DNA of 34,899 nucleotides from a bacterium (lineage in GTDB: Bacteria; Bacillota; Clostridia; Lachnospirales; Lachnospiraceae), in contig JAUNRX010000023.1 in assembly GCA_030539495.1 (NCBI GenBank), positions 1-34,899 of the forward strand, in the 5' to 3' direction. The translations under genes and the position numbers were made by a program. This document shows positions 10,249 through 24,660 of this stretch, in pieces. The notes under the pieces are model-generated. The model ran no database searches. It had not been told where the DNA came from and was given only the letters and a program-made list of their open reading frames with translations. How positions within the stretch are numbered: the stretch's first letter is position 1; every line of letters begins with the position of its first letter.

Positions 10249-10332
10249 GCATTGAGAGGATTCGTGTAAAAAAGTTTTAAGAAAAGTTTTCGTATATAGG
10301 AATGTTTTCGAAAATTTCAACATATATATAGT

Positions 10333-10364
10333 TGTAGATATATACTTTCTCTGATATATCTACA
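10333..10364. repeat. 11-bp perfect inverted repeat
   Basis: TGTAGATATAT at 10333-10343 is the exact reverse complement of ATATATCTACA at 10354-10364, with a ten-base loop. It begins the gene-free interval 10249-11045. A partial echo (CTGTAGATATT) recurs near 10701. It is AT-rich and could be a protein-binding site or cruciform. Confidence 0.6.
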
Positions 10365-10370
10365 CCCCAT

Positions 10371-10432
10371 AAGGCGGGTAGCAAAATGAAACTAGATGCG
10401 AGGCTAGCGACGTTTTGTTATCCGCCTTTTTG
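10371..10432 (+). terminator. Long hairpin terminator with an alternative downstream stem
   Basis: The arm starting AAGGCGGGTAGCAAAAT (10371) pairs with GTTTTGTTATCCGCCTT (ending 10428), with the deviations all G-U wobbles. An inner CTAG/CTAG stem follows, and a run of T ends the element. The 3' arm can instead pair forward: CCGCC-TTTTT-GGCGG at 10422-10436. The two folds exclude each other. Wobble pairing points to function as RNA. It is the most likely terminator of the DUF5688 transcript. Confidence 0.65.
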
Positions 10433-10462
10433 GCGGGTTGTCGCAGGGAAGATAATGAAAGC

Positions 10463-10695
10463 TTTTTATTAAAATACCTGAAGTTTCACGAAACATAGCT
10501 GTGAGGTTCCGTAACAATGCTAATGTTCTTCCGCTACCTCTACAGACAGCCTAAACTATCCACTGCTGTCATACACCTGCGGGTGTCTGCCCTCAGTGGA
10601 TAGTTTAGGCTGACAGTAACGGTAGATGAAGTACATGTTAGCATTGTTAGGAACTCACAGTTATGTTAGTTAGGCTGAGACTATTTTAATAAAAA
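10463..10695. repeat. ~233-bp near-palindromic (MITE-like) element
   Basis: The left end TTTTTATTAAAATA (10463-10476) is exactly mirrored by TATTTTAATAAAAA at 10682-10695. Inner parts of the arms match too: GTAACAATGCTAA against TTAGCATTGTTA, and CAGCCTAAACTATCCACTG against CAGTGGATAGTTTAGGCTG. The centre is a small ACACC-TGCG-GGTGT stem-loop at ~10574-10587. There is no open reading frame. No target-site duplication is visible. A non-autonomous transposable element or a large structured RNA are the main alternatives. Confidence 0.65.
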
Positions 10696-10713
10696 CCTAT
10701 CTGTAGATATTGA

Positions 10714-10780
10714 TGCGACAGCCAGGAGGAAGGTATTATAGGGCAATACCTTCTAAAAGACTGGCGAGTGGGCTGTCGCA
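10714..10780. repeat. Nested hairpin between the two 60-bp repeats
   Basis: TGCGACAGCC (10714-10723) pairs perfectly with GGCTGTCGCA (10771-10780). Inside it GAAGGTATT (10729-10737) pairs perfectly with AATACCTTC (10745-10753). GCCAG (10721-10725) could alternatively pair with CTGGC (10761-10765). The TGTCGCAG at the 3' side also occurs at 10439-10446, before the first 60-bp repeat. Confidence 0.6.
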
Positions 10781-10800
10781 GTTGAAGTGTCTTGGAGGAA

Positions 10801-10860
10801 TTTTTATTAAAATATCTGGAGTTTCACGAAACATAGCTGTGAGGTTCCGTAACAATGCTA
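10801..10860 (+). repeat. 60-bp direct repeat, second copy (first at 10463-10522)
   Basis: Bases 10801-10860 match 10463-10522 at 58 of 60 positions. The unit contains a GTTTC-AC-GAAAC mini-hairpin. Identity stops abruptly at 10860, so this copy carries only the left arm of the larger palindrome. A third, diverged copy forms the right arm of that palindrome in inverted orientation. Confidence 0.85.
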
Positions 10861-10975
10861 TTGTGTTTTACATATAAAATCCTTAAAATCAATTTTATGT
10901 ATCATTTAGAAAAAATTATTACTTTTATTTTGTGTTCTATACAAGTGGTAGATAGGGGGGGCCAGGAATTTTAGG

Positions 10976-10989
10976 CGAACAGGAGTTTG
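10976..10989 (+). promoter_or_regulatory. LexA-box-like site overlapping the jet promoter
   Basis: CGAACAGGAGTTTG resembles the Gram-positive LexA (DinR) box CGAAC-N4-GTTYG. The central bases AGGA depart from the usual RNRY pattern. Its right half overlaps the -35 region of the promoter before jetA, the right place for repression. Confidence 0.4.
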
Positions 10990-11015
10990 CTGTAATCTAC
11001 AAAATGTGATATAAT
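10987..11015 (+). promoter_or_regulatory. Promoter of jetABC
   Basis: An extended -10 (TG at 11007-11008 and TATAAT at 11010-11015) is preceded by TTGCTG at 10987-10992 with a 17-base spacer. It gives a leader of ~25 bases to the AGGAG at 11036-11040. Confidence 0.7.
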
Positions 11016-11045
11016 ATTACAAAGAAAACTAAAGTAGGAGAACGT

Positions 11046-12443
11046 ATGGAACGACTTAGAGAGATACCAGAACAGTTTTTCGGTTTATTTCAATCGAAGA
11101 ACCGATATATATACATGGAAGCATTGTTGCTGATTTACGAGGAATATCTCTATAATGATTATTTCTTATCGAAAGAAACATGCATCCAGTTGCTACATGA
11201 TCGTTTTAACAATCGTATCTTTGACCTGTCTGAAGAGGAAGAGATGGTTGCGGAAAAGACGGAGCCTGTGGCGACTCAGATTTTTGCTAAATTACTATAC
11301 TTTAAATGGCTTCGCAAGGTAGAGGATTATCAGACGTTTAAGACAAATGTTGTCATTCCTGATTATGCCTCTATTTTTATTGAAGCAATGATCAAGATTA
11401 AAGATCCGGGACAGAACGAAACGGATATTTATATCCAGAATGTCTATACCAATATTTACTCGTTCTACCATGATAAGAAGGCGGGGATTGAATTACTTAA
11501 GACGGCTATGGTCAATACATCCAACCTAAACCGTGCCCTTCAGGATATGCTTCATAACATGGACAAGTTTTTTGAGTCCTTATTACAAAAGGATTCCTAT
11601 GAAAATCTTTTGGAAGAGCATTTATATGGATATGTAGAGTCCATTGTAGACCGTAAATACAGTCTTCTTAAGACAAGTGACAACTTCTATATCTACAAAA
11701 ATGATATTAAGACGTTGCTTCGTGCAATTCAGGAAGATGACGAGCGTCTGGAACTTTTAAAGAGAAAGATGATTTTAGAAGGAACCAGTCTAGGCGACGT
11801 TGAAGAGCAGATCAGCGAGATGATCGACGCAGTAGAACGTGGAATCGGTAATATGGAGCGAAGAATTGCCTATATTGACTCAGAACATACAAAATATGTC
11901 CGTGCGACGGTAAGAAGATTAGAGTATCTATTAAATAATGACGAGAATATGACAGGCCGCGTGGTCAATGTACTTAACTTATTTAGTAATCAGAATCAAG
12001 AAGAGTTATTAGGTGAAGTGGCAAAGAAAATAAAGATTCATGACAATACCATGTTTGCCAAGGACCTTATGTATACAAAACGAGGGAAACGAAAATCGTT
12101 TGAAGAAACGGTTGAAGTATTAGAAGAAGCGAAAATGCTTACGAAAGAAGAGATATTGCTTGCAAATCGTAAGAAACATCGTTTTAGTAAAGAGCAGATT
12201 GAGTCCTTTGTCTTAAGGAATATGAGCGAAGGAACCTTTGATACGGCACAGACGCCAATTACCAATGATGAGGAATTTGAACTTTTAATCTTAGCGTATG
12301 ACCATTCTCTTCGTAAGAAGAGCCCTTATATGGTAGAAGCGACAGGAGAACTGATTACCACAGAAAGTTACAGCTATCCTCAGATGACATTTAGAAAACG
12401 TGACAATAATCATAAGGAGAACGCAGATGACAGGATATTATAA
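11046..12443 (+). CDS. jetA: Wadjet-family JetA-like protein (kleisin subunit)
   Basis: This 465-residue protein opens with LREIPEQFFGLFQSKNRYIYMEALLLIYEEY, characteristic of the JetA family formerly called DUF5716. Known JetA/MukF-type proteins are kleisins that bridge the heads of an SMC dimer and carry winged-helix ends. Here the N-terminal ~120 residues are helical, and a long helical/coiled middle (residues ~225-310) is rich in Glu/Arg. A C-terminal domain contains LLILAYDHSL. No catalytic motif is seen, as expected. It is the first gene of a tightly overlapping operon with jetB and jetC, which supports the assignment strongly. ATG 11046 follows AGGAG by five bases. The related Wadjet systems restrict plasmids by loop extrusion and cleavage, but the cleaving subunit JetD is not encoded here. 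Confidence 0.8.
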   Translation: MERLREIPEQFFGLFQSKNRYIYMEALLLIYEEYLYNDYFLSKETCIQLLHDRFNNRIFDLSEEEEMVAEKTEPVATQIFAKLLYFKWLRKVEDYQTFKTNVVIPDYASIFIEAMIKIKDPGQNETDIYIQNVYTNIYSFYHDKKAGIELLKTAMVNTSNLNRALQDMLHNMDKFFESLLQKDSYENLLEEHLYGYVESIVDRKYSLLKTSDNFYIYKNDIKTLLRAIQEDDERLELLKRKMILEGTSLGDVEEQISEMIDAVERGIGNMERRIAYIDSEHTKYVRATVRRLEYLLNNDENMTGRVVNVLNLFSNQNQEELLGEVAKKIKIHDNTMFAKDLMYTKRGKRKSFEETVEVLEEAKMLTKEEILLANRKKHRFSKEQIESFVLRNMSEGTFDTAQTPITNDEEFELLILAYDHSLRKKSPYMVEATGELITTESYSYPQMTFRKRDNNHKENADDRIL

Positions 12444-13038
12444 TACGCTTATGTTAGAAGAACAAGAAGAACTAAGCGATGCGATACAGTTATTACAAAG
12501 TCAGACCTATGTGCTGGAAAAGAAATATGATAAACGTAATTCCCGTTATCATTTAAATAAAGCATACCGAGTTTGTGAAAAGCATCTTGATTTTATCAAG
12601 GAATATTTTAAGATTGCACGAGTGGATGTAATCGAAAATACACAGTACGGAATTATCGGATTAAAATCCAGCGTCGTACAAGGAGAAAAATTCAGCAAGT
12701 TAACAAGCGTATTCGTACTCTTATTAAAATTATTATTTGATGAGAAGATGGGGGAAGCATCGAATTCCATCCATATTTACGTGACGTTACAGGAAGTTTA
12801 TGAAAAGATCCAGTTATTTCATGTCTGGGAAAACAAATCGATCAGCCCAACGGACTTAAAGAGAACGTTAGCCGTGTTAAAGCGCTACCAAGTAATCGAA
12901 GTATTAGATCCGATGGCAGAAGTGACGCCTGAGACAAAGCTGATCATTTATCCAACCATCCATATGGTATTAAATCCGGAAGATGTGGCAGCAATCTTAG
13001 AACAGTATGGAACAGAAGAGGAGGAAGAAAATGAATAA
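12427..13038 (+). CDS. jetB: Wadjet-family JetB-like protein (KITE/MukE-type subunit)
   Basis: A 203-residue helical protein with winged-helix character, between a JetA-like and an SMC-like gene. This is the position and size of JetB (MukE-like KITE subunits, DUF4194 or a related family), which bind the kleisin. Visible elements are YRVCEKHLDFIKEYF, then a strand pair ending in GIIGLKSS, a helix VFVLLLKLLFDE, and a C-terminal wing LKRYQVIEVLD. The tail is very acidic (EEEEENE). The start at 12427 follows AAGGAG (12414-12419) by seven bases and lies inside jetA, giving a 17-base overlap; the gene also overlaps jetC by eight bases. Family assignment rests partly on context. Confidence 0.75.
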   Translation: MTGYYNTLMLEEQEELSDAIQLLQSQTYVLEKKYDKRNSRYHLNKAYRVCEKHLDFIKEYFKIARVDVIENTQYGIIGLKSSVVQGEKFSKLTSVFVLLLKLLFDEKMGEASNSIHIYVTLQEVYEKIQLFHVWENKSISPTDLKRTLAVLKRYQVIEVLDPMAEVTPETKLIIYPTIHMVLNPEDVAAILEQYGTEEEEENE

Positions 13039-16000
13039 CAGGTTATTGATGACTCGTATGGCTTTAAATAACTGGCACTATATTAACGAGCAGATCTTAT
13101 CATTTAATCAGGATATTAACTTCTTCACAGGACATTCCGGTTCCGGTAAGTCCACTGTGCTGGATGCCATGCAGTTATTATTATATGCGGATACCGATGG
13201 ACGAAGCTTCTTTAACAAGGCGGCAAAGGATGATTCGAACCGTACGTTGATCGAATATCTTCGTGGTATGAATAATGTTGGGGAAAACGGTGAGGCAACT
13301 TACCTTAGAAATCAAAACTTTTCCACAACCATTGCCGTTGAGTTTAAGAATACATCTACCAACGAGTTTCAAACCGTAGGTGTCAGCTTTGATGTCGAGG
13401 TTGGTACGAACAATACAGACCGTCTCTTCTTCTGGCACAGAGGACAGCTATTAGAAAATGGCTATCGTTATGAAAAGAAGACGATGACTTGCAACCAGGT
13501 AAAAGAATATTTATCAAGAAGATATGAGCAGGAAGACTGGTGGTTCAGTAGAACAAATGATAAGTTCAGAACCCGTTTATATGAGACTTATCTTGGTGGA
13601 CTTGATGAACGAAAGTTCCCAATGTTATTTAAGAAGGCAATCAGTTTCCGTATGGATACTAAGTTAGAGGACTTCGTAAAAGAATTTATCTGCGTGGAAA
13701 AGGACATCCATATTGAAGACATGCAGGAAAGCGTAATCCAATATGTCCGTTTAAAACGTAAGTTGGAAGATACAAAGCAGGAAATTGAGTATTTAGAAAA
13801 GATTAATGAAAAATACAAGGTGTATGATGCGTCTAACCGTGCGGCTGCACAGTATACGTATTCGTTACAACAAGTAAAGTTAGACATCCTAAATGATGCA
13901 TTAAATACAAATCAGACAAAACAGGCAGCATACAAGACGGATTTAGGGGAGCTTGGGGCAAATGTCGTAGAGTTTGAGCAAAAAGTAAAGAGTCTGCAGG
14001 AAGAACAGGTTAATGTTAAGACTGCAATTAAAAATAGCGGATTTGACCATTTGGCAGCAGAAGAGAAGTCCTTAAGCGAGCTTGTTTCCCGTTACCATAA
14101 GAGTAAGTTAGAATATGACCGTATTGTACAAGGACTTATGTTCTGGAAACTGGTAGACGGAATTGATGTCTCTTCCTTGCTTCCTTTGTTTGAACGAGTT
14201 GAGGCAGGAACGGTAACGGAAGAAGAATTAAATCAGATCCGTACCACAATTGCAGGCATTCGTAAAGAACAGTTAAAAACCATTGATGAGAAGAAAGCGG
14301 CTTACAACCAGTTAAAAGAAGAATGTGCGGAGACCAAGAGAGAGCTTACAACGCTTCAAAGTGGTAAGAAAGCATATCAGAAAGAGCTTGTGGAAGCAAA
14401 AGAATTTATTGCAGCAGAGCTGAAAAAGGAAACGGGAAGCGATGTTGAAGTAAATATCTTAGCAGATTTAATCGATGTGAAGGAAGAAGCCTGGTTAAAT
14501 GCAGTGGAAGGCTTTATGAGCAATAACAAGCTTGCACTTTGCGTGGAACCGAAGTTTGTAAAACAGGCCATGGCTATTTATGAAAAAATGGATGCCAAAC
14601 GTTATCACAAGATTGTAATGATCGATACGGAAAGAGTCGTGGACAATAAGAGAGAGCCTCTTAAAAATGCACTTAGCGAGGAAATCATAACTGACCTTCC
14701 TTATGTCCAGGCATATGTAGATTTCTTAATGGGATCTGTGATCAAATGTGACACCATGGAAGAACTTCGTAAACAACGAAGCGGAATTACAAAAGACTGC
14801 GTACTTTACCATAATTACAGCATCAAGCATATCGATCCAAAGCATTATCATAAATTTGCTTATATCGGTCAGTCTTCCATCCAAAGAAGATTAAAAATCT
14901 TAACTGAACAGTATGAAACAATGCAGGAAAGACTTGCTCCAATGGGAGAAGCGATAGAGAAAATCAGTTCCGTATTGGCATTAGAATACCTGGATAAAGA
15001 CAATGCGTACTATATGGGATATTTAGAAGATATCCATAAGATTGCTTCTCTAGAAGTTAAAATTACGGATATCAATGCCAAAATCAACGAGCTTAAGACA
15101 AAAGACTTATCTTTATGGAAAGAGGAAGAAGTTCGCCTTCAGGAAGAAGTGGATACGTATTCGAAAAAATTATCTTCTGCCATGTCCGATAAACAGACAA
15201 AAGAACGCGAGTTAGAAAGCTTAAAATCACAATTTGTCATCTTGATGGAGCAACACAATGAGACAAATAAGGCATTTGAGTTTAATGGTGAAAAGAATAA
15301 AGAATATCAGGCATTTATCAAGAAGAATGAAGTGCATTCCTTAGAGCGCGTGCGAAGCATGCTAGAAGGCTTGATCAAGAAGGAAGCAGACATCAATGAA
15401 GCAGCCTTTACAGCATTGACCGTAGAGAGAGAACAATACTTAAATCAATATGGATTTAGAGGGTTCTCCATCACAGCCAAGGAAAATACGATGTATGAAA
15501 ACCTTTATGTGAAGTTATCCAGTGAAAAGCTGTCAGAATTTATGAATAAAGCGGGAGAACAGGCGAAAAAAGCAGTAGACCACTTTAAGACTGACTTTGT
15601 CTATAAAATTCGAGATGCAATCAAAGAAGCATTACAGCAAAAAGAAGATTTAAATCAGATCCTTAAGAAGACAGACTTTGGTAAGGAAAAATATCGATTT
15701 GTAATTGAGAAGAATAAAGGGGAAGATGGCAAGTTCTATACCATGTTTATGGATGAAAACTTAGAAATCAATCCAAAACGCCTTTCCAACCATATGGACA
15801 ACCAGATCGACTTATTCTCTGCAAATCATGAAGATAAGTACAATGACTTAATCAATGAATTGATCGATATCTTTATGCCGCCGGAAGACTGTGACAAAGA
15901 ACAGTTAGAAGAAGCAAGAAGAAACATTGAGAAATATGCAGATTATAGAACGTACCTTTCTTTTGATATGGAACAGATCATCGAAGGCATGGCTCCAATG

Positions 16001-16378
16001 AGACTTAGCAAGATGTTAACGAAGAACTCCGGTGGGGAAGGACAAAACCCATTATACGTTGCATTACTTGCAAGTTTTGCAGAAGTATATAAGATCAGTC
16101 TGCGTAAAAATGTTAGAAGACGAGTGACTCCAAGACTTGTAATCTTAGATGAAGCATTTTCCAAGATGGATGGAGAAAAGGTGGCAAGCTGCGTAGAATT
16201 AATTCGTAAATTAGGCTTCCAGGCGATTATCAGTGCAACCAATGATAAGATGCAAAACTATGTAGAAAGTGTCGATAAGACATTTGTATTTGCAAACCCA
16301 AATAAATCTTATATCTCCATTCAGCCATTTGAAAAAGCGGAATTTCATGAGTTATTAGACGAGAAAGAAGAAATGTAG
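13031..16378 (+). CDS. jetC: Wadjet-family JetC-like SMC ATPase
   Basis: A 1,115-residue SMC/MukB-like ATPase. Walker A GHSGSGKST is at residues 34-42, the ABC signature SGGEG near 1000-1004, and Walker B VILDEAF near 1037-1043. Long coiled coils fill residues ~240-480 and ~640-900. They flank a globular hinge-like block around 480-620 (ADLIDVKEEAW to KHYHKFAYIGQ). The N-terminus NNRLLMTRMALNNWHYINEQ fits the first strand and helix of COG4913-type JetC proteins. All ATPase motifs are intact, so a working motor is expected. ATG 13031 follows GAGGAGG in the jetB end and overlaps jetB by eight bases. No jetD (DUF3322/DUF2220 toprim nuclease) follows; the next intact gene is ung. Confidence 0.85.
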   Translation: MNNRLLMTRMALNNWHYINEQILSFNQDINFFTGHSGSGKSTVLDAMQLLLYADTDGRSFFNKAAKDDSNRTLIEYLRGMNNVGENGEATYLRNQNFSTTIAVEFKNTSTNEFQTVGVSFDVEVGTNNTDRLFFWHRGQLLENGYRYEKKTMTCNQVKEYLSRRYEQEDWWFSRTNDKFRTRLYETYLGGLDERKFPMLFKKAISFRMDTKLEDFVKEFICVEKDIHIEDMQESVIQYVRLKRKLEDTKQEIEYLEKINEKYKVYDASNRAAAQYTYSLQQVKLDILNDALNTNQTKQAAYKTDLGELGANVVEFEQKVKSLQEEQVNVKTAIKNSGFDHLAAEEKSLSELVSRYHKSKLEYDRIVQGLMFWKLVDGIDVSSLLPLFERVEAGTVTEEELNQIRTTIAGIRKEQLKTIDEKKAAYNQLKEECAETKRELTTLQSGKKAYQKELVEAKEFIAAELKKETGSDVEVNILADLIDVKEEAWLNAVEGFMSNNKLALCVEPKFVKQAMAIYEKMDAKRYHKIVMIDTERVVDNKREPLKNALSEEIITDLPYVQAYVDFLMGSVIKCDTMEELRKQRSGITKDCVLYHNYSIKHIDPKHYHKFAYIGQSSIQRRLKILTEQYETMQERLAPMGEAIEKISSVLALEYLDKDNAYYMGYLEDIHKIASLEVKITDINAKINELKTKDLSLWKEEEVRLQEEVDTYSKKLSSAMSDKQTKERELESLKSQFVILMEQHNETNKAFEFNGEKNKEYQAFIKKNEVHSLERVRSMLEGLIKKEADINEAAFTALTVEREQYLNQYGFRGFSITAKENTMYENLYVKLSSEKLSEFMNKAGEQAKKAVDHFKTDFVYKIRDAIKEALQQKEDLNQILKKTDFGKEKYRFVIEKNKGEDGKFYTMFMDENLEINPKRLSNHMDNQIDLFSANHEDKYNDLINELIDIFMPPEDCDKEQLEEARRNIEKYADYRTYLSFDMEQIIEGMAPMRLSKMLTKNSGGEGQNPLYVALLASFAEVYKISLRKNVRRRVTPRLVILDEAFSKMDGEKVASCVELIRKLGFQAIISATNDKMQNYVESVDKTFVFANPNKSYISIQPFEKAEFHELLDEKEEM

Positions 16379-16437
16379 CAACTCTGTTTCTTTTTGGTGA
16401 CAAGCCGGAATATATTAGTACTGTAGAATAGAGATAG

Positions 16438-16563
16438 GGCAGTGCAACGCTTATTCAAGGGGATAAAATTAAAGTAATCTATCATACTGTTACTAGGGAA
16501 GCAGATATTGAAAAAATCACATTAGAAACGGTATTTGCAATTTATAAGATAGATGGACTATAA
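16438..16563 (+). pseudogene. Possible short coding remnant between jetC and ung
   Basis: A 41-codon open stretch lies directly after two in-frame stops (16429 and 16435) and has no start codon or ribosome-binding site. It has coding-like composition and reads ...QGDKIKVIYHTVTREADIEK... to a TAA. Upstream of the stops the same frame reads FLFGDKPEYISTVE, also protein-like. It may be the decayed end of a lost gene. It does not visibly resemble the JetD C-terminus. The family is not recognised. Confidence 0.3.
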
Positions 16564-16609
16564 TTTAGTAGAAATAGTAGGAAAAAAGTGATAATCGAGG
16601 TAATACAAG

Positions 16610-17287
16610 ATGGAAATTATAAAAAATGACTGGAGACATGCAATAGAAGGAGAATTTCATAAGCCTTATTATGCAGAGTTATATAAATTTGTAAATGAAG
16701 AATATAAGACTCATGTGATTTATCCGCCAGCACAGGATATCTTCAATGCGTTTCATTTTACACCATTAAGCAAGGTGAAGGTATTGATCTTAGGGCAGGA
16801 TCCTTATCATAATGCTCATCAGGCACATGGGTTAAGCTTTTCCGTTCTTCCGGAACAACAACAATTACCACCGTCTTTGGTGAATATTTACAAAGAATTA
16901 CACGATGATTTGGGCTGTGAGATACCGAACAACGGATATTTAAAAAAATGGGCGGATCAAGGCGTGTTACTTTTAAACACCGTATTAACGGTTCGTGCCC
17001 ATGAACCGAATTCCCATCGTGGACATGGCTGGGAGCAGTTTACCGATGCAGTCATCCATGCAGTAAATAATGAAGATCGCCCAATTGTCTGCATTCTTTG
17101 GGGAAAACCGGCACAATCCAAAAAGAAGATGCTTACCAATCCAAAGCACTTGATTTTGGAAGCACCGCATCCAAGTCCATTATCCTCTTATCGAGGATTT
17201 TTCGGCAGCAAGCCATTCAGTAAGACAAATGAGTTCTTAAAAGAACATGGGGTAGAACCAATCGACTGGCAGATTGAAAATATATAG
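16610..17287 (+). CDS. ung: Uracil-DNA glycosylase, family 1
   Basis: This 225-residue enzyme removes uracil from DNA, leaving an abasic site for base-excision repair. Family-1 motifs are complete: the water-activating LGQDPYH (catalytic D64), GLSFSV, LLLNTVLTVR for uracil recognition, and the HPSPLS loop with catalytic H187. Length equals the usual 220-230 residues. ATG 16610 follows GAGG with a nine-base spacing, a moderate site. The gene is followed by a strong terminator ~90 bases on, so it is probably monocistronic or the last gene after jetC. Confidence 0.97.
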   Translation: MEIIKNDWRHAIEGEFHKPYYAELYKFVNEEYKTHVIYPPAQDIFNAFHFTPLSKVKVLILGQDPYHNAHQAHGLSFSVLPEQQQLPPSLVNIYKELHDDLGCEIPNNGYLKKWADQGVLLLNTVLTVRAHEPNSHRGHGWEQFTDAVIHAVNNEDRPIVCILWGKPAQSKKKMLTNPKHLILEAPHPSPLSSYRGFFGSKPFSKTNEFLKEHGVEPIDWQIENI

Positions 17288-17378
17288 GCAATTGCTTGTA
17301 GGAGTACCCCTGTTATGCTAAAATAAAGCTGGATAAATGACTATGCAGGTATTGTCAGAATGATACCGAATTAGAAAG

Positions 17379-17431
17379 AGATACGAGTAAATTAGAGGAT
17401 TATAGGCTCTAATTTAGTTCGTATCTTTTTT
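17379..17431 (+). terminator. Rho-independent terminator after ung
   Basis: AGATACGA and TAAATTAGAG (17379-17397) pair with CTCTAATTTA and TCGTATCT (17407-17426), an 18-bp stem with small internal mismatches. A run of T follows. Confidence 0.9.
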
Positions 17432-17444
17432 CGTTTCGCCAAAA

Positions 17445-17464
17445 TATCATACTTTCGTATGATA
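17445..17464 (+). promoter_or_regulatory. Operator-like palindrome before the MBL/GrpE/Hsp70 operon
   Basis: TATCATAC (17445-17452) and GTATGATA (17457-17464) form a perfect 8-bp inverted repeat with a TTTC loop, 35 bases before the start codon. TATGAT within it (17458-17463) could be a -10 element, so a bound regulator would block transcription. No convincing -35 is seen. Confidence 0.45.
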
Positions 17465-17498
17465 AAATATTGTTGCATTTGAAGGGAGGTGTACGAGT

Positions 17499-18626
17499 GT
17501 GAAAAACTATCTCTATCCAATTGCGGGTGCAAATCATATCGGAGTATCCAGTTACTTTGTTAATTTGTCCGGGGTCAAGATTATTTTAGATGCAGGAGCG
17601 AAAAAAGGGATTTCTGAAGTGTATCCGGACTATTCCTCCATTGTGTATGAAGGCCACGTGAACAGTCTGGATGAAATGGACTTAATTATCTTAAGCCATG
17701 CGCATTTTGACCATATAGGGTCCCTTCTCTATATTGCTGGGCAAGCGAAAAATGCTACTATTATTGCATCAAAGACGACAAAAGATCTTATTCGCATGCA
17801 GCTTGTAGACTTTGGTAGATGTATTACCCATTATGACGATGAAAAGATAAAGAAAGCAAAATTAGTGAAAATGGAAGAGATATTAAATCGCATTGAGGAA
17901 GTTAGTGTATTGCATCCAATCGAGCGAAAAGGAGTAAAAATTACATTATATCCTGCGGGGCATATGGCAGGGGCGACAATGACGTACATAGAAGGACAAG
18001 AACAATCCATTTTATATACCGGAGATTTTAGTTTTGAGACCATTCTTGGAATGAATAAGCCACATTTTGATGGATTACGGCCGGATATTCTGATTTTAAA
18101 TGGGACAAATGGATATCGGTATCGGGTACAGAATCATTTTAATTATAAGGAGTTAGATAAAAAGATACGAAAACTACTGAAAAATGGAGCCAATGTATTA
18201 TTAAAGTCAACTAGCATAGCAAAGCATCTGGATCTATTCTATGCACTTAAGATTATGAAAGTAGATACGAAAATTTATCTGGATAAGGATTCCGAACTGA
18301 TTGCCGATGGCTTTTCCAATCTTGGATATTACATTTACAGCGAGAAGATTACAGGATATGTGGACCGACCGAAAGGAAGACATGTCTTAATCAGCCAGAT
18401 GGAGCATGAGGGATATCAATGCATCAATGTGGATAAGTATTCGTTACACGCATCCTTTGCCGAACTGATCAATACAGTCTATTTATTTGGGCCAAAGAAA
18501 GTGTTCGTGGTTCACTCGGAACCCCATAGCGACATGTTATGCTTTATGGATGATTTGAAACTACAGGGAAGGTATTTTGGAGAGTGTATTCAGTGTAAAG
18601 ACAAAAGAGTCTACTCTTTTGATTAG
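17499..18626 (+). CDS. MBL-fold metallo-hydrolase, beta-CASP-like
   Basis: A 375-residue metallo-beta-lactamase-fold protein. Zinc-binding motifs are present: HAHFDH (H67, H69, D71, H72), H155 in PAGHMAGA, D176 in YTGDFS, and a C-terminal VHSEP histidine. The insert between D176 and the C-terminal histidine resembles the beta-CASP cap found in RNases and CPSF-like nucleases, though it is short and diverged. The substrate is not known; RNA or nucleic-acid hydrolysis is a reasonable guess. The start is GTG 17499 after GGGAGG (17484-17489). It heads an operon with the GrpE-like and Hsp70 genes (20- and 12-base gaps), which is unusual for this fold. Confidence 0.8.
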   Translation: MKNYLYPIAGANHIGVSSYFVNLSGVKIILDAGAKKGISEVYPDYSSIVYEGHVNSLDEMDLIILSHAHFDHIGSLLYIAGQAKNATIIASKTTKDLIRMQLVDFGRCITHYDDEKIKKAKLVKMEEILNRIEEVSVLHPIERKGVKITLYPAGHMAGATMTYIEGQEQSILYTGDFSFETILGMNKPHFDGLRPDILILNGTNGYRYRVQNHFNYKELDKKIRKLLKNGANVLLKSTSIAKHLDLFYALKIMKVDTKIYLDKDSELIADGFSNLGYYIYSEKITGYVDRPKGRHVLISQMEHEGYQCINVDKYSLHASFAELINTVYLFGPKKVFVVHSEPHSDMLCFMDDLKLQGRYFGECIQCKDKRVYSFD

Positions 18627-18646
18627 CATAGATTTAGGAGGGCAGT

Positions 18647-19762
18647 ATGAAATATTTTAATATCTATAATAAAGTAATCGAGACAGAGTTTGCTAAAATT
18701 AAGGAGAAAAATCTTACGCTGGATGAAAAGAAAAAGAACGAATGGTATGCCATGAAGGTGGCAATGGAGTTACCGGGTGGTTCAAAGCTCGAACAGTATG
18801 AGGCATTTAAGGAATATAATAAGAGCTATTCCTTTGATAAGTTTGAGAGCCTGCTTCGTGCAGTGAATTTAAATACACCGGGAAAATGCAGATATATTGC
18901 AGGAAATGTAAAACGGGCAGCCAAGGACTTTAAGGGATTTTTGGACGGAGAGAACCAGTCAACGATCTATATGAAACGGTATATTGATAACCTTGTGGAA
19001 CGGGATATTGAAGAAAAGAGGATGTATTTTAAAGCAAAATACTTATTTGTGTATTTATATGTATTTGAAAAGGAGTTTAAGAGTGAACATTTGCTTGCAA
19101 TCCTGGAAAACTTTCTAGAGGGATTTTGCAGCAAGATGCTTTCGACCATCTTTGTAGATGTAAGTAAAAGTATGGGATTCCAGTATAAGAAATCAACCAA
19201 GGAGGTAATTGAAAAGACAAGAAAGGCATTGGAGTTTACAAATCAAAATGAGGATACTGAGGGGATTGAGGACCACGTAAAACAAATTGAGACATTGAAA
19301 TTCCAATTAGAAAACTATAAGAATACTTTGGATATGGTACAGTCCTTATTTGACGAATTAAAAGAAAGTGTGGAAATTAGTGCAATTGATGCAAGAAATA
19401 TGGCCGTCAGTGAGTTCTTTAGTGCCTTAAATTCCAAAGAATTTGGAAACCTTTTAGATAGCATGTTAGTGGTAGAGGATGTACTCACCAATTTACGAAA
19501 GAATCGAACGAAGGTTCCATCGGAATTAGTCCCTCTTACTATTATTTTTAAACAATTTATTCGGTTTATCAATAGTTATGGAATTGAACCAATTGACAAA
19601 GTAAATCGGACTTTTCAGGCAACATATGAAGAGGTGGCTTTGATGAATTATCAAGGAGAGCCATTTATTGACGATTATGATGTTAAAAAAGTTAAGGTTA
19701 CACAGCCTGGGTGGAAGTACCAGGATGTCGTCATTTCCTTGCCAACTGTTACAGAGTTATAG
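18647..19762 (+). CDS. GrpE-like protein with extra N-terminal helical domain
   Basis: This 371-residue protein ends in a segment resembling the C-terminus of the nucleotide-exchange factor GrpE: FIRFINSYGIEPIDKV (about residue 302 on), then a TYEEVA helix. It closes with VKKVKVTQPGWKYQDVVI, parallel to GrpE's GVExI, HEAV and VxxVxQxGY motifs. A coiled coil at ~210-245 (DHVKQIETLKFQLENYKNTL) matches GrpE's long helix. The first ~200 residues are helical, unrelated to ordinary GrpE (usually 180-220 residues in all), and not recognised. It sits 12 bases upstream of an Hsp70 gene, so exchange-factor function for that Hsp70 is likely. ATG 18647 follows AGGAGGG. The GrpE relationship was judged by eye. 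Confidence 0.6.
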   Translation: MKYFNIYNKVIETEFAKIKEKNLTLDEKKKNEWYAMKVAMELPGGSKLEQYEAFKEYNKSYSFDKFESLLRAVNLNTPGKCRYIAGNVKRAAKDFKGFLDGENQSTIYMKRYIDNLVERDIEEKRMYFKAKYLFVYLYVFEKEFKSEHLLAILENFLEGFCSKMLSTIFVDVSKSMGFQYKKSTKEVIEKTRKALEFTNQNEDTEGIEDHVKQIETLKFQLENYKNTLDMVQSLFDELKESVEISAIDARNMAVSEFFSALNSKEFGNLLDSMLVVEDVLTNLRKNRTKVPSELVPLTIIFKQFIRFINSYGIEPIDKVNRTFQATYEEVALMNYQGEPFIDDYDVKKVKVTQPGWKYQDVVISLPTVTEL

Positions 19763-19774
19763 GGAGGGAATAAC

Positions 19775-22345
19775 ATGAAGAATTATTATTTTGGAATTGA
19801 TCTTGGGACCACGAATTCTGTGATTTCCTATGCCAATATCACCAACAATGAGACGGTGAAGTGCTTAATCGTGGAAGTGGATCGAAAGATCGAAAATGGA
19901 GGAAGAGCAAGAGGAAAGATTTTACCTAGTGTAGTATTTTATAATAAAGATCCAAGGACAAATGAAATTATTCCAGAGGTAGGTGATTATGCAAAGAGCC
20001 GTTATGGCGTCCGTTATGGTTATGTATGTAAGTCAGTGAAGTCCCAGATGGGGAAAAATGAGCCATTAAAGTTGGCGGAGGAAATTGAGGATAAGACGCC
20101 GAGTCAGGTATCAGCGCAGATTTTACGAACTATGCTTACCAGTGCAAAGACGAGGCTGTTTTTAGATGAGATTACGGATGCAATTATCACCATACCGGCA
20201 TCCTTTGATTCGGATCAGTGTCAGGCTACGTTACGTGCAGCTAAGCTGGCAGGTATCGATGTAAATAATGAGCATGAGATCTTGTTATATGAGCCAAAGG
20301 CTGTAATTTATGATTTAGTCCATATGCAGGAATTAGGGGAAATCCCATCGGACATTATTGATTTCTCCACACCAAAGAATGTGCTTGTCTTTGACCTTGG
20401 AGGGGGCACCCTTGATGTTACGATCCACAAGGTTGGCTATATTAATGGTACTATGATGAATATCGAAGATCTGGCTATTTCAAGGTATACCCAGATTGGC
20501 GGAGATAATTTTGATGAGCTAATCGCCAAGGCTATGTATAAGCGTTTTGTTAATATGTATAAGCTGTCGATCCATGACCGAAGGAAAGAGGAAGTCATGA
20601 GCAAGCTTCGTACCAGGGCAGAGCGTGTGAAGATTGAGATGACCGATGATTATAAGCATGCCAAAGAGATGGGGAAGACGTTGGATAACGATTATTATTA
20701 CGACATCAGCGAGATCAACCTATATGACAGCTATAGTTATTCTGATGAGCTTACGATCCAGGAGTTAGAAGATATTATCGCGCCACTGATGGGAACCTCG
20801 TTGTCCTTAGCGGATGTCAAGCGAATCGACTCCATCAAAGAGTCGGAGATGAGCAATATCATTTACCCAATCCTTGATGTGCTTGCCAAGGCAGGAAGTG
20901 ATGTAAAGATTGATGCAGTTATTTTAAATGGCGGTATGACCAGGTTTTTCCCAATTAAGAAGAGAATTGATGAATTCTTTGGATTAGAGTCCTTGGTGAC
21001 GGCCGATCCTGATTTATCTGTTGCAAGAGGTGCCGTGTATTATCACTATTGTCTGCATAAATATAACGTCACAAAGAGTACGGAAGCAGAGAAACCCAGT
21101 AAGCCTGTCTTTATGACCGGAACCATTTTAAATGATACGGTAAATCTAGGAGTGAGCGGAGAATATGTATCCAAGTTAATCGATGCAGGTACCAAGTTAC
21201 CTTATTGTTCCGGAGTAATCGCAGAGAAATATTATCTTGCCAAGACCAGCGATTCCATGATGGTTGAGATTTTCCTTGGACGTGGTAATACGAAGAATAT
21301 GCCGAACCGTAGGATTGCAGATCGGATTGTGACCTTTGACCGTACGTATCCTGCAGGAACGGAGATTTCCTTTATCGTTTCTATCGATAATCTTCGAATG
21401 ATGAAGCTGGAGGCGTTTGTCAGCGGGCATATTGAGACACGCACTCTGATGAGCATTGATACAAATAAGAAGAATGCAGATAAAATTAAGACCAAGGCAT
21501 CTAAGATTATTACGGTAGAGAATCAGGTGTTAAATGCGAAGAGTGAGTTAAATAATCTGAAGATGTTAGTACATATGTCAAATAAAAAAGAAAAATACGA
21601 ATTTAAGATGAAAGTGAAACAGAGCTTTGAGACCATCCGCCGTGCAGACAATAAGCGAGACTTTTATTGGCCTATTATGAATGAGCTGTCATATCTGGGG
21701 TTAAATGATCCCTATCGAGGGTATTTGTATGCGGTAGCCTTTGAGCTATCCGATGGATTTTCCAAAGAAGAGCGTGTGGCGCTGCTATATGAATGTAAGA
21801 AACATTTTAGCCAGATGTACTATGGATTTCGAAATGAGGCTACTGTGCTAAAGGAGGCCATCCGTTATATTGCAAAATGGGATCAGGAGGGAAGTGCGTA
21901 TCTGCTTAACATCCTTCAGACCGGATATTTTTCGTACTATGAGAAGAGTATCTATATGGCAATCTTTGAATTGGCACCATTTAGCAAAGTGACGCTGGAC
22001 TTATTCTTAAGCATGAAATGTTCCACCGTAAGCACCCAGGTATTTGAGGCCGTGTATTACAGACTGGCAGAAAATAAGCAATTGATCAATGAGGATGTTG
22101 TAAATTATACGGTGGACTCCATTCAGAGCTGTATTGCATCCAATGACTTGACCATGCTTCGTACGATTATAAAGGGACTTGCAGCCATTGGTTCTGTGGA
22201 TGGACTAGAGGAGCATTGTTACTTATCTTTAAAGCGAACCTTGCAGGAAGTCAGACACTATGGTTTTGACGATGAGATGATTATGCTTGCCAGAGAAGCA
22301 GAGAGCAAGATGAAGCTATCTGAGAAGCAGTTGACAAAGTTATAA
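19775..22345 (+). CDS. Non-canonical Hsp70 (DnaK-like) with long helical C-terminus
   Basis: This 856-residue protein has a complete Hsp70 ATPase domain: phosphate-1 motif GIDLGTTNSV at 7-16, phosphate-2 VFDLGGGTLDV around 205-215, and adenosine motif LNGGMTRFFP near 383-392. A beta-rich region (~425-560; LGVSGEYVSKLIDAGTKLPY, then VEIFLGRG) corresponds to a substrate-binding domain but lacks the usual DnaK sequence. From ~570 to the end there is a ~290-residue helical region with repeat-like character instead of the normal lid. There is no EEVD-like tail. Typical DnaK is ~610-640 residues, so this is a distinct lineage. It is last in a three-gene operon with the MBL-fold and GrpE-like genes and is followed by a hairpin. 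A dedicated client is probable but unknown. Confidence 0.88.
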   Translation: MKNYYFGIDLGTTNSVISYANITNNETVKCLIVEVDRKIENGGRARGKILPSVVFYNKDPRTNEIIPEVGDYAKSRYGVRYGYVCKSVKSQMGKNEPLKLAEEIEDKTPSQVSAQILRTMLTSAKTRLFLDEITDAIITIPASFDSDQCQATLRAAKLAGIDVNNEHEILLYEPKAVIYDLVHMQELGEIPSDIIDFSTPKNVLVFDLGGGTLDVTIHKVGYINGTMMNIEDLAISRYTQIGGDNFDELIAKAMYKRFVNMYKLSIHDRRKEEVMSKLRTRAERVKIEMTDDYKHAKEMGKTLDNDYYYDISEINLYDSYSYSDELTIQELEDIIAPLMGTSLSLADVKRIDSIKESEMSNIIYPILDVLAKAGSDVKIDAVILNGGMTRFFPIKKRIDEFFGLESLVTADPDLSVARGAVYYHYCLHKYNVTKSTEAEKPSKPVFMTGTILNDTVNLGVSGEYVSKLIDAGTKLPYCSGVIAEKYYLAKTSDSMMVEIFLGRGNTKNMPNRRIADRIVTFDRTYPAGTEISFIVSIDNLRMMKLEAFVSGHIETRTLMSIDTNKKNADKIKTKASKIITVENQVLNAKSELNNLKMLVHMSNKKEKYEFKMKVKQSFETIRRADNKRDFYWPIMNELSYLGLNDPYRGYLYAVAFELSDGFSKEERVALLYECKKHFSQMYYGFRNEATVLKEAIRYIAKWDQEGSAYLLNILQTGYFSYYEKSIYMAIFELAPFSKVTLDLFLSMKCSTVSTQVFEAVYYRLAENKQLINEDVVNYTVDSIQSCIASNDLTMLRTIIKGLAAIGSVDGLEEHCYLSLKRTLQEVRHYGFDDEMIMLAREAESKMKLSEKQLTKL

Positions 22346-22353
22346 AGAGTAGT

Positions 22354-22388
22354 AGTAAAAGCGGATTTCGAATATCCGCTTTTACTTT
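22354..22388 (+). terminator. Terminator after the Hsp70 operon
   Basis: A perfect 13-bp stem, AGTAAAAGCGGAT with ATCCGCTTTTACT, has a short loop and is followed by TTTG. It lies eight bases after the Hsp70 stop codon. The T run is short, so termination may be partial. Confidence 0.75.
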
Positions 22389-22432
22389 GTCTATAATAAT
22401 GAGGAAACTAGTGTTTTATGGAGGTATTTGTT

Positions 22433-22999
22433 ATGTGTGGTAGGTTTAATGTAGATTTTGAGGGTCAGAAAGAGTTAAAGAAAATTTTACATGAGTTAAA
22501 TCAGAAACATCCAGGAAATCGGATTAAGCATGGAGATGTCTATCCAACCGATACGGCAGCAATTTTACGAGCTGAGGAAACAAAGATTGTTCCGGAGCTT
22601 TCGGTATGGGGATTCCCAGGATTTCAGGGCAAGGGAGTGATTATCAATGCCCGTTCGGAGACCGTATTTGAAAAGAAGACATTTAAGGACAGTATGGTGA
22701 CAAGAAGATGTTTAATCCCAATGACCGGATTTTATGAATGGGATGAGCAGAAAAATAAGTATTTATTCAAGGATAGTTCTGAGGTTATGTATGTTGGTGG
22801 AATTTATAATGAATATAAGGGGCAGAACCATTTTGTAATTATAACAACGGCAGCCAATGATTCGATGCGTGAAGTTCATAACCGGATGCCTTTGGTCATT
22901 GCAGAAAAGGACCGGGAATCCTGGTTAAAGGAGCGTGAAAAGACCAGTGGCATCTTAGCAAAAATACCTGAGGCATTAAAGAAAATGAGAGTCGGATGA
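22433..22999 (+). CDS. SRAP (HMCES/YedK) abasic-site-crosslinking protein
   Basis: A 188-residue SOS-response-associated peptidase family protein. It begins MCGRF, so after Met removal Cys2 becomes the N-terminal nucleophile that forms a thiazolidine crosslink with abasic sites in single-stranded DNA. Other active-site residues are present: N72 in INARSET with E76, E102 in GFYEW, and H149 in REVHNRMP. The start at 22433 is required for Cys2 and follows GGAGG (22420-22424) by eight bases; the upstream in-frame ATG at 22418 would destroy the active site. The protein is slightly shorter than usual (200-230). It lies directly before the LexA-controlled dinB and ~5 kb after ung, which generates abasic sites. 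Confidence 0.92.
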   Translation: MCGRFNVDFEGQKELKKILHELNQKHPGNRIKHGDVYPTDTAAILRAEETKIVPELSVWGFPGFQGKGVIINARSETVFEKKTFKDSMVTRRCLIPMTGFYEWDEQKNKYLFKDSSEVMYVGGIYNEYKGQNHFVIITTAANDSMREVHNRMPLVIAEKDRESWLKEREKTSGILAKIPEALKKMRVG

Positions 23000-23005
23000 G
23001 TCCTA

Positions 23006-23034
23006 TTGACATCGAACGTATGTTCTGTTATAAT
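23006..23034 (+). promoter_or_regulatory. SOS promoter of dinB: consensus -35/-10 with embedded LexA box
   Basis: TTGACA (23006-23011) and TATAAT (23029-23034) are both perfect consensus with a 17-base spacer. The spacer contains CGAACGTATGTTCT (23013-23026), a LexA (DinR) box that matches the Gram-positive pattern CGAAC-RNRY-GTTC. LexA bound here would cover the promoter, predicting tight repression and strong SOS induction. Confidence 0.92.
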
Positions 23035-23143
23035 CAGGGCATATTAGAAGAGTAGGGAGAGTTTGGCAATCGGTAACAATGGTATCGCCAGGTGGAACGG
23101 ACTTGGCACAGGAAATGAGCAAACAGAATCTGAGGTGAGAACG

Positions 23144-24403
23144 TTGGAACGTGTAATCTTTCATATTGATGTGAATTCCGCTTTTTTAAGTTGGGAAGCG
23201 GTATATCGCCTGCATGTATTAGGGGATACGCATGACCTTCGGGAAATTCCATCTGCTGTGGCAGGAGATGTTAAAAAACGCCATGGCATTATATTAGCAC
23301 GTTCCATTCCGGCAAAGCGCTATGGTGTAAGAACCGGCGATATGATTAGCGAGGCAACCAAGTTGTGTCCTACGCTAAAACTGGTTCCACCTCACTATGA
23401 TTTATACGCAACTAGTTCCAAGGCATTTATGAAGATTTTACGTGAGTTTTCACCATGCGTGGAGCAGTACAGTATTGATGAGGCCTTTTGCGATATGTCA
23501 GAGACCATTGCATTATACGGAACTCCTGTAGTAGCTGCAAACCTGATCCGCGAGCGGATTAAAGAAGAATTAGGCTTTACGGTAAATATCGGTGTGTCCA
23601 GTAACAAGCTACTAGCAAAGATGGCATCGGATTTTACCAAGCCAGACCGGGTCCATACCCTTTTTCCAGATGAAGTACCTCGTAAGATGTGGCCCCTTCC
23701 GGTAGGAGATTTATTTTTTGTAGGAAGGGCAACCAAGAAGAAGTTAAAGAACCTTGGCATCAACACGATTGGTGACCTTGCACAGACGGAGGTTTCTATC
23801 TTAAGCTCCCATTTGAAAAAGCATGGAGAGCTGATCCATGACTTTGCAAATGGAATTGATGTTTCTTTAGTATCCAGCCAGACCGTGGCTAATAAGGGCT
23901 ATGGCAATTCGACGACCATTGCTTTTGACGTAGAAGATGCGATTACGGCAAAGCTGGTACTGTTAGGACTAAGTGAGACCGTGGCAGCCAGACTTAGAGA
24001 GGACAATATGCTGGCAAGAGTAGTTGCAGTAGATATTGTAGATTATGAATTTAATCGATGTTCCCATCAGATGACCTTATATGAAGCGACCAATGGAACA
24101 AGTGAGATTTATCAGGCAGCATGTAAATTATTTGACCAGTTATGGAACCAGGCACCGATCCGTCACCTTGGAGTGCATACAAGCAAAGTGGAAGAGGATA
24201 GTGGTATGCGCCAGTTAAATCTTTTCGATATGGAAAAGAATGAGAAGCTTGCAGCTTTGGATAAGGCAATTGACTCCATTAGGGACCGCTATGGTGCAGA
24301 TTCTGTGATGAGGGCCAGTTTTGTGGGAAGTAAGATTTATCATATGAGTGGAGGCATCCCTCCGGAAAAGAGGAAAGTTAATTATAAGGATGTGAAGTTT
24401 TAA
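23144..24403 (+). CDS. dinB: DNA polymerase IV (Y-family translesion polymerase)
   Basis: This ~419-residue Y-family polymerase starts ERVIFHIDVNSAFLSWEA, the variant common in Clostridia. Metal ligands are D9 and the SIDEAF acidic pair. NIGVSSNKLLAKMASDFTKP marks the palm/fingers, and a helix-hairpin-helix region contains GDLFFVGRATKKKLKNLGI. The C-terminal part holds the little-finger domain and a clamp-binding motif RQLNLFD. The likely start is TTG 23144, preceded by GAGGTG at 23132-23137. A longer version from TTG 23063 adds 27 residues without family similarity. The LexA-box promoter at 23006-23034 implies SOS induction and gives a ~100-base leader with the chosen start. The stop codon overlaps the next start by one base. 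Confidence 0.93.
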   Translation: MERVIFHIDVNSAFLSWEAVYRLHVLGDTHDLREIPSAVAGDVKKRHGIILARSIPAKRYGVRTGDMISEATKLCPTLKLVPPHYDLYATSSKAFMKILREFSPCVEQYSIDEAFCDMSETIALYGTPVVAANLIRERIKEELGFTVNIGVSSNKLLAKMASDFTKPDRVHTLFPDEVPRKMWPLPVGDLFFVGRATKKKLKNLGINTIGDLAQTEVSILSSHLKKHGELIHDFANGIDVSLVSSQTVANKGYGNSTTIAFDVEDAITAKLVLLGLSETVAARLREDNMLARVVAVDIVDYEFNRCSHQMTLYEATNGTSEIYQAACKLFDQLWNQAPIRHLGVHTSKVEEDSGMRQLNLFDMEKNEKLAALDKAIDSIRDRYGADSVMRASFVGSKIYHMSGGIPPEKRKVNYKDVKF

Positions 24404-24660
24404 TGAATGTTCCAGTAGATGTATTAGCCACATTTAATACGATTGGCGGGATTAAGCCAACTTATATTCGCTTGGAGGATGGAGACCATATGCTTCATAC
24501 ACACAAGATTGAAGATATTTTATATACAAAAGAGGAAAAGTATGCAGGAATTGCAGCGATGTTATTTTGCTGTAACATTAGAAATGATAATTGCAAGCAA
24601 ATGATAAAGCTGCGTTACCAGATTGAGTCCCATACATGGGTGTTGGTACGCAGCCTCTAG
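24403..24660 (+). CDS. Small hypothetical protein coupled to dinB
   Basis: An 85-residue protein whose ATG overlaps the dinB stop codon (TAATG), suggesting translational coupling and SOS co-expression. It is soluble, with YIRLEDGDHMLHTHKIEDILYTKEEKYAGIAAMLFCCNI as its most ordered part; a His/Cys scatter (H, H, C, C, C) is seen but no clear zinc motif. I do not recognise a family. The last ~17 codons coincide with the hairpin that serves as terminator of the opposing araC-type gene, which constrains their sequence. It ends one base before that gene's stop codon. Confidence 0.6.
   Translation: MNVPVDVLATFNTIGGIKPTYIRLEDGDHMLHTHKIEDILYTKEEKYAGIAAMLFCCNIRNDNCKQMIKLRYQIESHTWVLVRSL
24600..24654 (-). 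terminator. Terminator of the araC-type gene, inside the opposing small ORF
   Basis: GCTGCGTTACCA (24609-24620) pairs with TGGTACGCAGC (24644-24654) with one bulge, with an inner CCCAT/ATGGG. Read on the minus strand it is followed by TTTATCATTT, as expected for a Rho-independent terminator of the araC-type transcript. On the plus strand no T run follows. Confidence 0.7.

Follow-up and report, generated by a model that had tools for sequence, protein, structure and literature searches.

We identified a three-gene operon on the plus strand of a 34,899-nucleotide stretch of Lachnospiraceae DNA (contig JAUNRX010000023.1 of assembly GCA_030539495.1, positions 1 to 34,899; the window in what follows). 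It encodes a predicted relative of beta-CASP nucleases with the metallo-beta-lactamase (MBL) fold, a GrpE-like protein and an Hsp70. The trio is kept together in distant bacteria and so looks like a chaperone-controlled RNA-cutting machine. It is close to an even chance, if slightly below one, that the operon works as one machine in which a beta-CASP metallo-ribonuclease of the CPSF73/INTS11/RNase J type is gated by a dedicated Hsp70 with its own exchange factor. Each protein lies in or near a known family, and it is the combination and the dedicated architecture that appear to be undescribed. Searches of open-licence full texts showed no description of the trio, although one may exist elsewhere. 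The three genes are as follows.

17499..18626, plus strand: gene 1, a relative of beta-CASP-type metallo-beta-lactamase-fold nucleases, 375 amino acids (aa), with a shortened beta-CASP region

18647..19762, plus strand: gene 2, 371 aa, a GrpE-like nucleotide exchange factor that carries an additional N-terminal domain (Pfam and profile-profile comparison)

19775..22345, plus strand: gene 3, an Hsp70 family protein, 856 aa (Pfam HSP70, 1.8e-39; structure model with a predicted local distance difference test score, pLDDT, of 87.2)

The genome_contigs collection (84,980 species according to its description) was scanned with the family-specific Hsp70 segment via two short peptide patterns. The best 80 of 81 relatives gave 79 loci, near-identical pairs such as L061/L062 included. 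In nine of these loci the contig begins too late to include the whole MBL gene, whose tail shows in two. Where there was upstream room, the MBL, GrpE-like and Hsp70 genes followed one another in this order on one strand in 68 of 70 loci, the MBL being absent from L084 and L101. Sixty-six of these trios were recognized by profile hidden Markov model (HMM), including a broken copy (L103) and two loci with a partial MBL gene (L086 and L097), and the other two (L045 and L094) by tblastn. In five loci (L030-L034), genes 1 and 2 form a single frame of 768-796 aa. The first-pass annotation, made from the letters of the window alone, had proposed a dedicated system of a chaperone and a metallohydrolase; this is strongly supported by the ordered trio and the fusions, and the genes proved to be near-universally, not rarely, adjacent.

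Evolution of the three proteins was also found to be correlated. Over the 49 loci common to all three alignments, tree-distance correlations were 0.940 (GrpE-MBL), 0.957 (GrpE-Hsp70) and 0.976 (MBL-Hsp70), compared with a maximum of 0.393 in 1000 shuffles per pair. That the genes share only a transcript and have no joint function would need nothing more than that neighbouring genes are sometimes unrelated; the fusions and the order kept across phyla contradict it, the correlated trees also count against it, and we give it hardly any credence. The records are labelled Lachnospiraceae, Selenomonadaceae and Epulopiscium on the Bacillota side, and elsewhere Treponema and other Spirochaetes, Synergistaceae, Poribacteria, an Anaerolineae (Chloroflexota) bin and two Heimdallarchaeota bins. 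The two Heimdallarchaeota-labelled contigs (6.3 and 3.9 kb) are possibly mis-binned; L100 is a trio and L102 a GrpE-Hsp70 part without MBL. Decayed copies were also seen, with split frames in L103 (Allobaculum) and stop-interrupted frames in L140/L142 (a Synergistota genome).

Occurrence of the trio was then assessed genome by genome. Among 200 genomes of the family, the GrpE-like protein query matched seven, the window's own included; six matches were real, and these six genomes hold seven copies, every one a complete trio. The window's genome has a second complete MBL-GrpE-Hsp70 operon (L016, C256:115-5055), which is about 34-51% identical to that of the window. In the genus, all four genomes were matched, own included. 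With the GrpE-like profile, matches were found in 3 of 391 genomes of the class (own, G555 and a weak one in G285). For the phyla of L073, L078 and L043, the counts with this profile were 11 of 149, 7 of 84 and 3 of 149, the last made up of one strong match and two weak ones in G902 and G876. No MBL or Hsp70 relative lay beside the weak matches in G078 (E-value 4.7e-4) and G285 (locus L107), which were rejected. We examined 26 loci from the class, Synergistota, Poribacteria and genus searches, at least five of which repeat records of the 79 (L026, L027, L069, L073 and L078) and one of which is the weak L107. The ordered trio was present in 17 of the other 25 (16 places, one stop-broken), two of these with only an MBL tail at the contig start; three were cut before the MBL gene, and L136/L137 had no MBL within 1.4 kb upstream.

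A search with the nuclease agreed with this. Some beta-CASP relative was detected by the MBL profile in 148 of the 200 family genomes, with at most nine candidates scored per genome. Full-length matches (E-value 5.8e-86 or better) numbered seven and were identical to the seven trio copies, the next being weaker (5.4e-68 downward). The two best of these weaker matches, which had looked like lone nucleases, were rejected: L165 has ESTYG and belongs to the ordinary beta-CASP proteins, whereas the frame of L166 is broken by stops and matches the profile in two pieces. As for a fourth conserved gene, no neighbour family occurred in more than 12 of the 79 loci, many of which have short flanks.

The gene 1 product is a predicted relative of CPSF73/INTS11-like beta-CASP metallo-nucleases in which the beta-CASP domain is shortened. 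It matches Pfam Lactamase_B_6/RMMBL, and INTS11 is its top match by both structure and sequence; the predicted structure of a fused MBL-GrpE relative aligns with INTS11 over 357 residues. The best NCBIfam profiles are Cas14 and aCPSF1, both far under their cut-offs. MBL motifs 1-4 are all present (D31, H67/H69/D71/H72, H155 and D176), and include the following feature.

17697..17714, plus strand: HxHxDH metal-binding motif, gene 1 residues 67-72 (alignment of 57 sequences)

The HHDH residues are kept in 56 of the 57 aligned MBL sequences, the window's included, and the other MBL motif residues in all 57. H317 and H339, at the positions of the histidines of beta-CASP motifs B and C, are invariant across the same members. 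A histidine at motif C is regarded as a mark of RNA enzymes. The segment between the two MBL halves is 109 residues long in the window and 109-122 across Bacillota and Spirochaetota. Since the nuclease belongs with the CPSF/INTS11/RNase J group, RNA is its likeliest substrate.

The gene 2 protein consists of two parts.

18647..19231, plus strand: N-terminal domain, gene 2 about residues 1-195 (no Pfam family above cut-off; helical in a relative's model)

19241..19741, plus strand: GrpE-like part, gene 2 residues 199-365 (Pfam boundaries; arrangement of elements as modelled for the fused relative L034)

That this protein is GrpE-like is well supported but not proven. Pfam GrpE (PF01025) matched residues 199-365 over its cut-off (2.2e-8), and a scan of 16 carrier genomes placed it over the cut-off also in the trios L033, L034 and L073. 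When 63 sequences of the family were compared as a profile with 14 ordinary GrpE proteins, 80 columns near the end aligned at an E-value of 4e-5 and a probability of 70%, and the family motif GW.Y.D fell on GY.L.D of GrpE in the profile-profile alignment. For the ordinary set, 16 loci were tried, of which two had no GrpE by script and one 628-aa frame was dropped, and the genome's own GrpE was added. With hhalign against one single ordinary GrpE the probability was 1.2%. The L034 model has a helical N-terminal domain at 417-594, helices at 603-624 and 631-679, two shorter helices and a beta-rich end at 731-787, and its confidence drops to pLDDT about 57-75 across roughly 610-670. The succession of long helix, short helices and beta-wing that is expected of GrpE was present at 603-787 of this model. 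Among the 50 structural matches listed, no GrpE or HEAT entry fell on the GrpE half or on the Hsp70 C-terminal region, and the listed matches stop short of both. The profile signature and the predicted element order speak for a probable GrpE fold, and a GrpE-like end joined to about 200 unrecognised residues, as first described, is what we find.

Three regions were distinguished in the gene 3 protein.

19775..21064, plus strand: nucleotide-binding domain, gene 3 about residues 1-430 (alignment with the genome's own DnaK; invariant columns in 68 sequences)

21140..21460, plus strand: DnaK-like beta substrate-binding domain, gene 3 residues 456-562 (model superposes on DnaK)

21536..22342, plus strand: all-helical C-terminal region in lid position, gene 3 residues 588-856 (secondary structure of the model)

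The ATPase keeps its phosphate loops and its catalytic residues, both in the alignment with the genome's own DnaK and among the invariant columns. The model superposes on DnaK across residues 1-569, and its residues 588-856 form 15 helices, which exceed the length of a lid; most DnaK matches end before this region. The intact ATPase motifs and the extra helical residues of the first-pass annotation are confirmed, with about 270 of these residues in the position of a lid; the beta part of the substrate-binding region is DnaK-like in the model. Gene 3 also matched phrog_22570 (3.5e-96), a phage family of unknown function with 682 positions. This match was rejected as a viral link because the profile also matches 195 of the 200 family genomes, mostly in frames of about 330-380 aa, and is not specific. 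Its first 320 or so positions match both gene 3 and a ~330-380-aa frame in nearly every genome of the family.

Fusion of the nuclease to the exchange factor, together with the near-constant Hsp70, suggests that the exchange factor brings the nuclease to the cargo of Hsp70. We infer a mechanism in four steps. Given its ATPase residues and predicted fold, the Hsp70 would grip an exposed peptide or ribonucleoprotein (RNP) surface with its DnaK-like beta domain and hydrolyse ATP. The predicted helices of the C-terminal region may then act as a docking surface, not as a lid. The GrpE-like protein would reset Hsp70 and also bear the nuclease, the two being one subunit that is fused in the five loci and presumably held together by binding in other members. 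Finally, the nuclease, with its metal ligands and predicted fold, would cleave RNA, the substrate expected from its family, at the site marked by Hsp70, e.g., in the mRNA or rRNA of translation complexes that stall or misfold. With such complex formation, gating and trigger, the trio would be a stress-conditional RNA quality-control device beside ordinary DnaK/GrpE. An ordinary GrpE-DnaK pair is also encoded by the window's genome (L025), and a separate strong GrpE was found in 15 of 16 carrier genomes; therefore, the trio adds to the ordinary chaperone and does not replace it. CoCoNuTs have been proposed as a case in which Hsp70 was co-opted by systems directed at RNA (PMC11090510). A stronger version, in which exchange and RNA cutting occur in one cycle and the trio is a new class of ATP-driven ribonuclease, composed of an Hsp70 with a helical docking arm and a nuclease-bearing exchange factor, is rather doubtful.

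Several observations weigh against a chaperone-gated ribonuclease. The glutamate that is the acidic residue of beta-CASP motif A is missing in the window and in aligned Bacillota and Spirochaetota members; the site reads ILNGTNG in the window versus E followed by S/C-T (ESTYG and similar) in Poribacteria, Anaerolineae and most Synergistota. With this glutamate absent, nuclease activity or chemistry may have changed. Pfam Beta-Casp was detected in just 7 of 57 members, the window's protein not among them. Only 7 of 63 members of the GrpE-like family reached Pfam GrpE at 0.01, and a PDB profile search with this family returned no GrpE. GrpE plus Hsp70 occurred without an adjacent nuclease in L084, L101, L136 and L137, and three GrpE-like pieces in genome G650 had no Hsp70 alongside. 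In addition, the module has no J-protein gene, and no CIRCE heat-shock operator was present within the window at three or fewer mismatches.

The altered motif A raises the question of whether the MBL protein is no longer a nuclease and serves as a hydrolase of another substrate or as a metal-binding scaffold subunit of the exchange factor. Loss of the glutamate and the cut of the inter-half region to 109-122 residues in Bacillota and Spirochaetota would fit this explanation. However, nearly all 57 members retain the metal ligands together with the histidines of motifs B and C. The glutamate is also kept, alongside the same partners, in the members from Poribacteria and Anaerolineae and in three of four aligned Synergistota members, and we consider this explanation improbable. 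It is also possible, if unlikely, that the Hsp70/GrpE pair serves privately to assemble or maintain the nuclease, which would be its client and be kept folded or inactive until needed. This explanation is modelled on the chaperoning of eukaryotic INTS11 by BRAT1, used here as an analogy only, and a single dedicated client that adjoins its chaperone and is fused to the exchange factor would agree with it. Nevertheless, other beta-CASP proteins occur without the trio in about 140 of the 200 family genomes, these are not known to need a private Hsp70, and in four loci GrpE and Hsp70 stand with no nuclease next to them.

Two signals flank the operon.

17482..17489, plus strand: likely ribosome-binding site AAGGGAGG, 9 bases 5′ of the GTG start (direct sequence reading)

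22354..22386, visible on both strands: terminator-like hairpin behind the operon, 13-pair stem

The three genes, all on the plus strand, are separated by spacers of 20 bases (genes 1 and 2) and 12 bases (genes 2 and 3), and a single terminator-like hairpin follows them, which confirms the layout first annotated. The count of sites comparable to the hairpin at 22354-22386 was no higher across the region than in shuffled sequence.

Selection on the trio was estimated against the 95%-identical operon of G830. Ratios of nonsynonymous to synonymous rates (dN/dS) were 0.026, 0.026 and 0.022 for genes 1, 2 and 3, and 0.030, 0.044, 0.037, 0.069 and 0.036 for the flanking uracil-DNA-glycosylase-like, SRAP, Pol IV, JetA and JetB genes; these values are rough because dS is near or above 0.5-1. 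On these sequence comparisons, constraint on the trio is housekeeping-like. Surroundings of the window are maintained in G830. Around the trio of G829 (same genus) and around the second copy, no fetched gene matched the window neighbours, with one exception: an open reading frame (ORF) located some 17 kb past the second copy is similar to the window ORF at 5301. At 11046-16378, the window encodes Wadjet JetA, JetB and JetC, then a uracil-DNA-glycosylase-like gene (named from sequence) at a place where one might look for JetD, an arrangement kept in G830.

With PADLOC models, the MBL protein gave a best E-value of 0.019, Hsp70 one weak match (5.7e-4, residues 283-369) and the GrpE-like protein no match; the trio does not correspond to a known anti-phage system in these models. 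We also collected the two nearest genes per side (110-999 aa) at loci with MBL and Hsp70 matches, 84 upstream and 97 downstream; eight loci were excluded beforehand (repeats, broken or cut), and 143 of the 181 genes were aligned after 38 had been removed by hand for size. Among the matches listed, Pfam families of these neighbours were diverse, and no PADLOC family occurred in more than 3 of 143 (mad2 in 3; mad3, mad8, Cas6 and one Cas1 family in 2 each; reverse transcriptase, RT, in 1), a comparison with no control set by which enrichment is neither shown nor excluded. A defence-island setting was not supported: defence models were not prominent among these neighbours. Viral contigs contained no relative of the GrpE-like family or of the Hsp70-specific segment; they gave at least 80 Hsp70s 25-30% identical to gene 3 (best 80 kept) and eight MBL proteins at 21-27% identity to gene 1. 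Plasmid and phage records had no relative of the GrpE-like protein, and among the phage matches listed gene 3 gave only Hsp70 stretches of 25-30% identity. On these records, carriage by viruses or plasmids was rejected. Hsp70-like proteins with ~25-30% identity to gene 3 are encoded by large phages, namely Lak phages and unannotated ones of 480-735 kb, and by many viral contigs (L197-L276).

These data bear on an anti-phage role, in which Hsp70 would sense phage assembly or an unfolded phage protein and unleash the nuclease. The spread of the trio is patchy (6 of 200 family genomes, own included; in two further phyla, 11 of 149 and 7 of 84), the window has a Wadjet operon upstream of the trio, a few neighbours at other loci match MADS, Cas1, Cas6 or RT models, and the Hsp70/GrpE GTPase systems (PMC7159879) and CoCoNuTs (PMC11090510) have been proposed to be conflict systems. 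However, no PADLOC family is frequent among the neighbours listed, no close viral, plasmid or phage relatives were found, the proteins evolve slowly compared with JetA, and the GrpE-like protein is present in every genome of the genus searched. Moreover, G830 has the Wadjet neighbour too, but among the genes fetched for the second copy and for the copy in G829 none matched it. We consider defence improbable. The first-pass annotation had suggested a role in nucleic-acid or protein quality control, or in defence; of these, we favour the nucleic-acid role, given that CPSF73, INTS11 and RNase J are the enzymes with which the MBL protein groups, and defence found no positive support.

The systems most similar to the trio differ from it in composition. 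As described in the relevant sections of the CoCoNuT report (PMC11090510), CnuD of types III-B/C has Hsp70 nucleotide- and substrate-binding domains and then HEAT-like repeats, a layout like that of the trio Hsp70 with its helical region. CnuD is encoded alongside RNases with RNA as proposed target, and one figure legend names an MBL-fold protein among the superoperon genes (PMC11090510). In contrast, CoCoNuTs have a McrB-type GTPase core, mostly with HEPN nucleases, whereas the trio nuclease is a beta-CASP MBL enzyme; Walker A motifs of CnuD are reported as degenerate, whereas the ATPase motifs of the trio Hsp70 are intact; and the main text of the report contains no occurrence of GrpE, whereas the trio has a dedicated GrpE-like factor (PMC11090510). 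Neither a McrB or McrC family nor a GAP1-N2 or DO-GTPase gene was detected among the 10 window proteins scanned (9298 to 24660). The GAP1-N2 and DO-GTPase conflict systems carry HSP70 and GrpE, and resemble the trio in that an accessory operon encodes an additional HSP70 along with a GrpE of its own, but centre on GTPases with FNIII/DnaJ or tubulin partners, and an MBL nuclease is not named in the corresponding passages (Kaur et al. 2020, PMC7159879). A separate operon of the window's own genome (L017, contig C61) encodes DO-GTPase2, a 721-aa unknown protein, an Hsp70-vWA fusion, Hsp70 and GrpE, and resembles these systems as they are described there (PMC7159879).

Compared with CPSF73/INTS11, archaeal aCPSF1/FttA, Cas14 and RNase J, gene 1 shares the predicted fold and metal ligands, but has a shortened beta-CASP region, lacks the motif A glutamate in the window and has near-constant Hsp70 and GrpE partners. 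The chaperone part shares with canonical DnaK-GrpE the nucleotide-binding domain, the beta substrate domain and a GrpE-type exchange factor; it differs in the ~270 helical residues at the place of the lid, the altered linker sequence, the N-terminal domain added to GrpE and an operon without DnaJ. In locus L052, the gene that lies 26 bases upstream of the trio MBL gene (446-2776) encodes a 776-aa protein whose Hsp70 ATPase domain encloses a PIN nuclease domain at residues 213-336; this locus also carries two more Hsp70 genes (495 and 561 aa).

If the proposed mechanism is true, the trio would be a chaperone machine devoted to a ribonuclease, tying RNA cleavage to the state of protein folding by way of a single operon. 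A comparable link has been proposed for the ordinary chaperone of B. subtilis, DnaJK, with RNase P (PMC11898665). In the stronger and rather doubtful version, the chaperone would recognize a nascent protein or RNP that is failing, and cutting of its RNA would be directly coupled to this. Such coupling would exist in bacteria, and possibly in Asgard archaea, and would use the nuclease fold of eukaryotic CPSF and Integrator. The fused forms would make the link between chaperone and nuclease directly testable, and members that retain the long beta-CASP region and the glutamate of motif A, beside members that have lost both, would provide a natural series on the re-purposing of a CPSF-like enzyme.

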